This document shows positions 60,510 through 64,000 of a stretch of DNA of 64,000 nucleotides, piece by piece. Numbering within the stretch: the first letter of the stretch is position 1; each line of letters opens with the position of its first letter. Origin of the DNA: Prochlorococcus sp. AG-412-I05 (GTDB lineage: Bacteria > Cyanobacteriota > Cyanobacteriia > PCC-6307 > Cyanobiaceae); contig QCLC01000007.1 of assembly GCA_003214855.1 (NCBI GenBank), forward strand, positions 20,726 through 84,725. Direction: 5' to 3'. The notes under the pieces were generated by a model. It saw only the letters and a program-made list of their open reading frames with translations, was not told the DNA's origin and ran no database searches. The position numbers and the translations under genes are program-made.

Positions 60510-61846
60510 TGCAGTGCCTCCAGTAGTGGCAGCAGTTTCCAGTTCAGCTCTTCCGCTTCGCAATCGGGGTCGGAACCGGTCACGATGCCGCAGCCCGCAT
60601 GGGCTCGTAACGTGTTCCCCTCGAGCAACATCGAGCGAATCAAAATGCTGCTGTCGAGCTGCCCATCCCAGTTGAGATGCAACAACGAGCCGCAATAGGG
60701 TCCGCGTGCTGTTGGTTCCAGGTCGTGCAGTCGCTGACAGGCGCGCAGCTTGGGGGCACCGCTGATCGAACCTCCCGGCCAGCAGGCTTTCAGCAGGTCT
60801 ACCCACGATTGGTCTGATCGAAGTTGTCCTTGCACGACTGAGGTGAGGTGATGCACATGGGGATAACTCTCAAGGCCTACCAATTGAGGCACTGTGATGG
60901 AGCCGGGTTGACAGACTCGCCCTAGATCGTTGCGCAATAGATCGACGATCATCACGTTTTCAGCTCGGTCTTTGCTGCTGCAAACAAGATCAGCTGCCAG
61001 ATCAGCGTCTTGTCTCGGGTTGGGGTGGCGAGGTCGGGTTCCTTTGATTGGTCGTGTTTCAACTTCTCCTGTCGGGAGTGCTTTTAGGAAACGCTCTGGA
61101 GAGGCGGAGATCACGGCTTCACCTTTTGCAAGGCCTGCAGCTATTACCAGGCCGGCAAAGGGAGCTGGGTTGTGGTGGCGAAGTTTTAGGAAAAGGTCAA
61201 CGGCGAAGCTTCCCGAAGGGATCGTGGTGGTACAGCAAGCGCTGAGATTGGCCTGGAAAATATCGCCGCTGGCAATCCAATCTCGGATCTGCTGCACATC
61301 ACGTGCATAGTCAGCTCTAGTGGTGAGCCATTCCCATGCATTGACGGGAATGTTGAGGTCTGTTGTTGCAAGTAACGACTCATCTTTGCTGCTTTTAGGT
61401 GCATCTTCAGTTGGGTTGGCTTCTAGCCAGTTAGCCAGCTCTTGCAGTCGTTTGGGATCACACCCTTCGATCCAGAGTTGATGCTTTTGAAGGTCGAATC
61501 GCAGTATTGGATCGTGACGCGCCATCCACAGAGTCGCCATGGAATCTGCTTTCCAGGGATTTTTGGGTTCTATCCAGGCTCCTGCCTCATAGCTAAGCCA
61601 GCCAGTCCAGTGGCCTGGCTTTAGATGCCGCAGTGCCTCAAAAGGATTGCTGGCACCTTTTTCGCCAGGGATGCCTCGGCAACAAATCTGATTAATGGGA
61701 TCGACTGCCAGAGTCGCCCAACGACCGAGACCACTGCCGTCTCCATCCAGCCAGACAAGCCCAGCTTCTCCCCAAGTTTTGGTGAGTCGTTTTGCCAACA
61801 TGGCTGGTTCTTGCCAGCGGCAAAGTCGCCGCTCCAGAGCAGTCAT
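60506..61846 (-). CDS. Chorismate-binding para-aminobenzoate/anthranilate synthase component I (PabB-like; start [11 protein letters not shown])
   Basis: [66 protein letters not shown]. Confidence 0.93.
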
Positions 61847-62544
61847 GGTGTCGGCTTGCTGCAGAGATCTGATCTGCCAGCCTCGCTCAAAGCTGCATCG
61901 CGGATGCGGCAGCTGTCGCATATACCGCAGGCATGATCGCCTCCGCTGTAGCAGCTCCAAGTTTTTTCGATTGGTACGCCTAGCCGCAGCGCCTCTTGCA
62001 CAATCTGTTTCTTGTTCCAATCAATTAAAGGAGCCCAGAGTTGGATCCCATGTCCCTCACGGCCAGCTTTATTGGCCAGATCAGCCAAGGTCTGATAGGC
62101 CTTGAGATAGTCAGGTCTGCAGTCTGGGTAGCCGGAGTAGTCCATTGCATTGACCCCTAATACCAGCCCATTGGCATCCCGGGCTTCGGCAAGACTGAGG
62201 CCAATGGCAATGAAGACGGTGTTGCGTCCAGGGACGTAAGTGTTGGGGATCACTCCGTCAACGACTCCTTCACTGGGCACTGTTTGCGTTAGATCAGTGA
62301 GGGAGGAGCCTCCCCAACTGCCAAGGTTGACATTGATCACATGGTGTTCAGTGAGACCCATGTGGGCTGCTAGCTCGTTAGCGGCTTGCAGTTCTTTGTG
62401 ATGTCGTTGCCCGTAATCGAAGGAAAGTCCGATCACTTTTTGCCCAGCCTCTATGGCTAAAGCAGCGGCAGTCGCCGAATCAAGTCCGCCTGAGAGCAGG
62501 GCAATGGTTGTTGAGTGGATCATGTTGGCCATTCTGTTGTGCAC
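61843..62544 (-). CDS. queC: 7-cyano-7-deazaguanine synthase
   Basis: [39 protein letters not shown]-terminal [13 protein letters not shown]. Confidence 0.97.
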
Positions 62545-62576
62545 GTTGACGTGGCGTATTCATTCAGATCAGGCCT

Positions 62577-62830
62577 TTGTTTTGGCTTTTAGCCCTACTA
62601 GCGACGACAGGGGCAGCACCGTTAGGGGCCATCCCACCCCTTGATTGGACTGCTTATCCCTTGCCTGTGCAAGATCAGCAATGTTGGCTGATTCAGCTGC
62701 CTGGATGGCTGCCTCGCAGTTCTGACCCTGCAGTGTCTTCAAATCCTGCCGATTGGCGAGTTCAATTGATTGTCGGTTAAAACGTTCAGCTCGATTGCAA
62801 TCAGCAATCTTTAGTTGGTCATTGATTGAG
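62577..62830 (+). pseudogene. Ecotin-like serine protease inhibitor, interrupted
   Basis: LFWLLALLATTGAAPLGAIPPLDWTAYPLPVQDQQCWLIQLPGWLPRSSDPAVSSNPADWRVQLIVG*NVQLDCNQQSLVGH*; in-frame TAA at 62778-62780 inside a conserved-looking block. Confidence 0.6.
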
Positions 62831-62957
62831 GATGATGAGGCTCAATGGGATGACCAGGAAAGAACTTTTCTAAATTCCACCTCATGTTTCAGCTTGCCTG
62901 TAAAAACAGACATCAGTGCGATTTTCAGCTATAGAAACATTAGCCAAGAGCCTCTTA

Positions 62958-63302
62958 ATGTCAGAAGAACAACTCAAAGCCTTTTGGGAAGCAGTCCAGG
63001 CTGATACTTCGCTGCAGGAAAAGCTAAGGGCTACAACAGATGCTGATTCAATCGCCAGCATTGCCAAAGAGGCAGGTTTTGAGATTACTGCTGAAGAGGT
63101 CGAGGAAGCTCAATCTGAGCTGTCAGAAGAAGAGCTTAAGGGAGTTGCTGGTGGCTTTTCTTCAAGTTACAGAACGATCGGTGGAGCGAAGGGACGACCT
63201 AAGCGGGATGAGACGGCGGGGCCGTTAACTTTTGCTTGTACAGATAAGCGACCTAAGCGGGATGAGACGGCGGGGCCGTTAACTTTTGCTTGTACAGATT
63301 GA
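62958..63302 (+). CDS. Prochlorosin-type lanthipeptide precursor (Nif11-like leader, duplicated core)
   Basis: MSEEQLKAFWEAVQADTSLQEKLRATTDADSIASIAKEAGFEITAEEVEEAQSELSEEELKGVAGG | FSSSYRTIGGAKGRPKRDETAGPLTFACTDKRPKRDETAGPLTFACTD. Confidence 0.9.
   Translation: MSEEQLKAFWEAVQADTSLQEKLRATTDADSIASIAKEAGFEITAEEVEEAQSELSEEELKGVAGGFSSSYRTIGGAKGRPKRDETAGPLTFACTDKRPKRDETAGPLTFACTD
63195..63299 (+). repeat. Perfect 51-nt tandem repeat (54-nt period) within the lanthipeptide core
   Basis: 63195-63245 and 63249-63299 are identical (cgacctaagcgggatgagacggcggggccgttaacttttgcttgtacagat), separated by aag. Confidence 0.98.
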
Positions 63303-63473
63303 TCCGACTTCGGACAGCGCCGCACGCCAGTCCGGACCGCGCGACCACGCCAGTCGACCCGACTCCGCCCAGTGTCCGACTCCGTACTGTGCGATGCTTG
63401 CGACGACTGTGCGATGTCCGTCCGCAGCGCTGGGCATGAGGTGACATTGACCACTCCCCAAACCTACATACTC

Positions 63474-63505
63474 AAAGCCCCTGCAATCGCGGGGGCTTTT
63501 TATTT
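63474..63505 (+). terminator. Intrinsic terminator downstream of lanthipeptide precursor
   Basis: AAAGCCCC-TGCAATCGC-GGGGGCTTTTT. Confidence 0.8.
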
Positions 63506-63681
63506 CTTCAACCACCTCACTATTGGCTTGAAATAACCATCGATACCTGGCACGATTGTCTTTCGAAAAGTTGCCTTGATGCCTTATTTGGCATGCACTA
63601 ATCGGAAATAGTTTTTCGTATTCACAACAAATCTACCCTTAACTTAATCTGCTCTAAAGCTATTTATATTCCCTAACTTAA

Positions 63682-64000
63682 TCACCACAGATTGAGGCTT
63701 TGATCACCCTCTCTAATTCCATTTGTTTTTCTAAATCTCACCGCAACCTGATGCCAATCCTCAGGGATTTGATTGAGGCGAACATCCCAAGCCCAAGGTA
63801 ATTGCTGTTGGCCAGGAGAAACCCTCTTCTTTTTGCTTCTAGTTCTTGCACTGCTCACCAGTCGTTTGAGCATGCGGCTGCCCCAATGGCACTTAGGAGC
63901 GCCTTTGCCCTTATGGCGATAGTGCTTACAGAAATGCTCATAGCTCCTGGCACAACCATCAAGCGTTGCCGAGAGCTTTAAAAAGGCAGGGCTCCATTCA
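63682..64000 (-). mobile_element. C-terminal part of a probable transposase (IS200/RAYT-like), truncated by window edge
   Basis: Open reverse frame to the edge: EWSPAFLKLSATLDGCARSYEHFCKHYRHKGKGAPKCHWGSRMLKRLVSSARTRSKKKRVSPGQQQLPWAWDVRLNQIPEDWHQVAVRFRKTNGIREGDQSLNLW*. Confidence 0.4.

Follow-up and report, generated by a model that had tools for sequence, protein, structure and literature searches.

Genomic context of the precursor gene

In Prochlorococcus sp. AG-412-I05, a gene encoding a ProcA-type precursor peptide lies near one end of the window, i.e. the whole 64,000-nt stretch of DNA that was analysed (positions 20726-84725 of contig C7, itself 84,725 nt long). The genome assembly comprises 2.13 Mb in 101 contigs and is 74% complete, and some 700 nt separate the gene from the end of its contig. 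The precursor is followed by an untranslated stretch, a 3' element with a terminator-like hairpin and a convergent transposase gene that is cut by the contig end (Table 1). Upstream, at 62577-62834, lies the broken 5' part of a gene encoding ecotin, a protease inhibitor. MIT9313 has neither the precursor nor the transposase; an intact ecotin gene (PF03974) stands in their place.

Table 1. Features of the precursor locus, in window coordinates.
Feature	Position	Strand	Basis or remark
ProcA-type precursor gene	62958..63302	+	ORF, ATG 62958 to TGA 63302, 114 aa plus stop
Nif11-type leader, 66 aa, end SEEELKGVAGG	62958..63155	+	TIGR03798, PF07862
Core, 48 aa, FSSSYRTIGGAKG plus two modules	63156..63299	+	sequence; 2 Cys, 10 Ser/Thr
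Module copy 1, RPKRDETAGPLTFACTD	63195..63245	+	51-nt direct repeat, 100%
AAG (Lys) linker between copies	63246..63248	+	outside matched tract; period-54 run is 51 nt, not 54
Module copy 2, RPKRDETAGPLTFACTD	63249..63299	+	51-nt direct repeat, 100%; TGA stop directly after
GC-rich 3' untranslated stretch	63303..63447	+	replaced with core relative to MIT 0701 (alignment)
Conserved 3' element of ProcA-type genes	63448..63570	+	downstream of precursors in several genomes
Intrinsic-terminator-like hairpin in 3' element	63474..63499	+	terminator scan; 11 pairs, then T-rich tail
IS200/RAYT-type transposase gene, C-terminal part	63682..64000	-	convergent with precursor, cut by contig end

Profile searches with the leader gave 83.4 bits for TIGR03798, well past the curated cut-off of 32.3 by which Nif11-leader RiPP precursors are recognized, and 60.9 bits for PF07862 (Nif11). 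The leader ends in EEELKGVAGG, the double-Gly ending of prochlorosin (ProcA/SyncA) leaders, with Lys replacing the consensus Glu after EEL; the motif described for prochlorosins is of the D/EELExxxGG kind (PMC10783134). In the leader tree, this leader and that of the syntenic gene in MIT 0701 form a pair (support 100/99) within a group of 12 leaders (95/88), five of which are from MIT9313. The assignment of the gene to the ProcA-type precursors is supported, and its host belongs to the MIT9313 group of Prochlorococcus, with MIT9313 and MIT 0701 among its genus-mates. An earlier note on this DNA, made from the letters alone, had proposed a Nif11-type leader ending in ELKGVAGG and a 48-aa core, and the ORF and both of its parts are present as it described them. 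In the same genome, 11 leader matches score higher than the family cut-off; some of these are truncated or contain stops.

The 3' element, about 120 nt long, was found behind 29 of 30 precursors in MIT9313, eight of nine in the genome under study, seven of 12 in MIT 0701 and 11 of 18 in genome G050, as well as behind many Synechococcus precursors. Since it follows nearly all precursors of MIT9313 and of the present genome, each gene can be regarded as a variable core set between two conserved arms. Over 105 aa, the window transposase shares 91% identity with a complete protein of MIT 0701 that carries Y1_Tnp (PF01797). Convergent IS200/RAYT-type genes or their 3'-end remnants accompany 15 of 30 precursors in MIT9313, 4/12 in MIT 0701 and 3/9 in the present genome, as a rule some 150-420 nt past the stop codon of the core; genes or remnants of the same type (Y1_Tnp) were found at 6/20 precursors of G050 and at 13 of 281 others. 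Control stretches (window, procM and transporter loci) yielded two weak transposase matches besides the window's own copy. The recurring layout of leader, variable core, 3' element and transposase suggests a possible route for dispersal of these genes or exchange of their cores. A limited literature search returned no paper on such an arrangement of RAYT genes in Prochlorococcus.

The doubled core module

The core reads FSSSYRTIGGAKG-RPKRDETAGPLTFACTD-K-RPKRDETAGPLTFACTD. Each module has 17 residues with one Cys, and the two copies are identical at 51 of 51 nt with a start-to-start period of 54 nt. The triplets at the edges all differ (GGA before copy 1, AAG between the copies and TGA after copy 2). 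As the matched tract is 51 nt and not 54, either 51 nt were duplicated with a 3-nt change at the junction, or a 54-nt duplication was followed by changes in one edge codon only. The twin modules, their joining by one Lys and their identity had been pointed out in the earlier note and were all found in the sequence; the recent in-frame tandem duplication that it proposed is likewise supported, and looks recent. Assembly permitting, the sequence shows that the doubled module arose when 51 nt, together with a 3-nt junction, were duplicated in tandem and in frame. Each of the two Cys has a Thr at i-3 and further Thr upstream, as is required of a core that forms thioether rings, and the two identical modules in one precursor correspond to the repeated like modules (at least two) of multi-core precursors.

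The repeat was compared with a survey set of 353 distinct ProcA-type precursors from the present genome, MIT9313, MIT 0701 and related, mostly LanM-bearing, Cyanobiaceae, each core being scored by its longest exact direct repeat. Most of these repeats were 4-7 nt long (mode 5), and just four exceeded 11 nt, at 51 (the window core), 15, 13 and 12 nt; a repeat longer than 15 nt occurred in the window gene and in none of the 352 others. Two thousand shuffles of the core produced no exact repeat above 11 nt. With the shuffles stopping at 11 nt and the 51-nt repeat ranking highest among the 353 cores, the repeat is not due to chance. The repeat of 15 nt, second in rank, belongs to the syntenic gene of MIT 0701 and is in frame with a period of 18 nt; the top two repeats of the survey are both in frame and occur at a single orthologous locus, which hints at a local tendency, judged from two events only. 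Core duplication as a general mode of change was rejected, its perfect form being seen in one of 353 cores. Hairpin-driven slippage as the cause was also unsupported: each copy contains one hairpin-like sequence, but the folding stability of the tract does not exceed that of shuffled DNA (z -0.72).

Cys together with Ser/Thr is present in 93% of the 353 cores, and the commonest spacing, which the window modules share, places two residues between Cys and the closest Ser/Thr before it. At 48 aa, the core is long compared with the survey median of 21 (11 of the 353 reach at least 48 aa), which could reflect relaxed selection.

The earlier note had also proposed a search for one-copy alleles, and this search found none. 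The module unit was absent from all others of 400 Cyanobiaceae genomes (30 nt of the unit, up to three mismatches) and from IMG/VR viral contigs (27-nt exact search), blastn of the whole core region against 24 other related genomes, most of them LanM-bearing, gave no nucleotide relative, and tblastn of the whole precursor gave no match among phage records. An apparent match of residues 1-110 to a Synechococcus UW140 MAG is real for the leader only, as its remainder crosses a stop codon.

Core replacement at the orthologous locus

In MIT 0701, a precursor gene occupies the syntenic place with the same neighbours, and its leader is 92.4% identical in nucleotides. From about 63448 onward, the two sequences are again nearly identical. 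Between leader and 3' flank, the 294 nt of the window and the 220 nt of MIT 0701 are unrelated; the longest words shared by the two cores are 8 nt, about the level of chance, and remnant homology between them was rejected on this ground. Similarly, the 3' untranslated stretch had no match in its own or in related genomes. Such an unrelated middle between a leader and a 3' flank that are near-identical indicates that core and 3' untranslated region were replaced wholesale after the leaders had diverged. On this alignment, wholesale core replacement is the larger process at the locus, and the duplication a later or embedded step. Thus, where the earlier note saw a snapshot of core evolution by module duplication, the duplication itself is real, but it is one step in a core whose main modes of change are replacement and indels.

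Prochlorosin cores are known to evolve in large jumps and not through a gradual build-up of substitutions. The main evolutionary study, that of Cubillos-Ruiz et al. in PNAS in 2017, reportedly identified indels as the source of core diversity, a conclusion summarized in PMC10783134. To our knowledge, the origin of new prochlorosin cores is poorly documented at the level of single loci. The present locus displays two outcomes, namely a core replaced between near-identical alleles and a perfect in-frame duplication of a module within one of them. Turnover of these cores by replacement and indels has already been reported (PMC10783134).

When positions 61001-64000 of the window were compared with the two genomes, a block ending near 62834 was 87% identical to MIT9313. 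With MIT 0701, identity is 92-97% in the leader and 3' flank but only about 80% in the block that lies further upstream. This mosaic of relatedness to MIT9313 and MIT 0701 suggests recombination near the precursor. Within MIT9313, two precursors (L097:9616 and L101:1286) have identical leader proteins and unrelated cores.

Genes for modification and export

A lanM gene on contig C39 encodes a protein 82% identical to ProcM of MIT9313 and 78% identical to that of MIT 0701 over about 865 aa. It retains the Cys and Cys-Cys-Gly zinc positions and scores 346 bits for DUF4135 and 127 bits for LANC_like; by sequence, it is a ProcM orthologue, so that a ProcM-type LanM, as expected for prochlorosins, is present in the same genome. 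Adjoining it are genes for a peptidase-C39 ABC transporter, a second ABC protein and TolC-like and HlyD-like ORFs. The earlier note had looked to the rest of the genome for a lanM/procM gene and a peptidase-ABC transporter, and both the orthologue and a LanT-type transporter beside it are in place on C39. Their presence removes the main objection to that note. The presence of ProcM is also informative, since PF13575 occurs in just 26 of 400 genomes of the family.

A second LanM, encoded on contig C56 (L086:4329-7454, minus strand), is about 24% identical to ProcM and also has the Cys-Cys-Gly motif. As the genome carries two LanM genes, ProcM is the presumed, rather than the demonstrated, enzyme for this precursor. 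Upstream of procM, in the present genome only, is a gene for a subtilase (S8) with a W_rich_C domain (L085:11791-13647, minus strand); no S8 gene stands beside procM in MIT9313 or MIT 0701. ProcM of MIT9313 has been found to modify all 18 of the MIT9313 ProcA peptides tested with it (PMC11667668).

Proposed product and alternative explanations

The gene is probably a real class II lanthipeptide (prochlorosin-type) precursor that gives rise to one peptide of about 48 residues with two small identical rings. By orthology, the Nif11 leader would recruit the ProcM encoded on C39, which would dehydrate Ser/Thr residues and link both Cys, each to a dehydrated Thr that precedes it. The simplest ring, Thr-Phe-Ala-Cys in each module, would give the single chain a pair of small, identical methyllanthionine rings. 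The peptidase-C39 ABC transporter encoded by procM's neighbour may then cut after VAGG and export a peptide of about 48 residues with two like domains. The duplication arose in a core that, at this locus, is otherwise exchanged as a whole from one species to the next, while the leader and the 3' element are kept. The second Gly-Gly (TIGG|AKG), which the earlier note offered as an alternative cleavage point, lies outside the ELxxVAGG pattern of the surveyed leader ends and is therefore a weak candidate.

Alternatively, the two modules may be modified separately and cut apart at the basic RPKRD/KRPKRD sequences to give two copies of a single-ring peptide. Both modules come with a Cys and Thr residues of their own and start with the same basic N-terminus, copy 2 ends exactly at the stop, and a subtilase gene lies near procM. 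However, the stretch between the modules lacks Gly-Gly and any other conserved processing site of the leader type, and the subtilase was rejected as a dedicated linker protease because its place near procM is not conserved in MIT9313 or MIT 0701. A 2026 paper further states that multi-core architecture, known in other RiPP classes, is as yet unreported among lanthipeptides (PMC13343206). We consider this explanation unlikely, and two peptides separated at the basic linker less likely than a single 48-residue lanthipeptide with two rings. If cleavage at KRPKR did occur, the gene would be a multi-core lanthipeptide precursor; a natural one in which, following a recent tandem duplication, one leader and one ProcM event supply two identical single-ring peptides seems rather improbable.

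It is also doubtful, though conceivable, that the core is non-functional and drifting, with the leader kept, the core a transient of rapid replacement and the duplication neutral. The core has no relative in any of the genomes, viral contigs and phage records searched, the syntenic core of MIT 0701 is likewise long, unrelated and marked by a small duplication of its own, and several precursors of the same genome contain stops or truncations. Against drift, neither copy disrupts the frame, the duplicated length is divisible by three, and the leader, terminator and modification genes are all intact. An artefact of assembly or amplification, with a single copy in the cell, is very unlikely. The assembly is incomplete and fragmented, the contig end is near and the unit occurs in no second assembly; on the other hand, the array of 105 nt fits within ordinary short reads, the 3-nt junction linker is absent from the outer edges, which is not expected of a simple repeat error, and the contig stops inside the transposase gene, past the dispersed 3' element, rather than in the array.

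The precursor is a simple natural substrate for testing the formation of two identical rings within a single chain by a ProcM-type enzyme. It is also a test case for whether lanthipeptide precursors can act as multi-core precursors.

Comparison with known systems

The window gene is an unusual member of the known prochlorosin family, whose turnover by replacement and indels is already known. With the ProcA/ProcM system of MIT9313, it shares a Nif11 leader with an ExxELExVAGG-type end, a hypervariable core of Cys, Ser and Thr and the conserved 3' element, and the ProcM orthologue is likewise encoded elsewhere in the genome. A perfect tandem module of 17 residues, as in the window core, is missing from all 30 cores surveyed in MIT9313. 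The core AACHNHAPSMPPSYWEGEC, that of ProcA2.8, marks genome G002 as MIT9313. Multi-core RiPP precursors of other classes similarly carry several like modules behind one leader, whereas the window gene has no recognised processing sequence between its modules. The syntenic precursor of MIT 0701 is alike in locus, leader, near-identical terminator and downstream transposase, and its core also contains a short in-frame tandem duplication; that core (WWTTPDPSTCEASAVGC...) and its 3' untranslated region are nevertheless unrelated to those of the window, and its repeat is the shorter one, of 15 nt.
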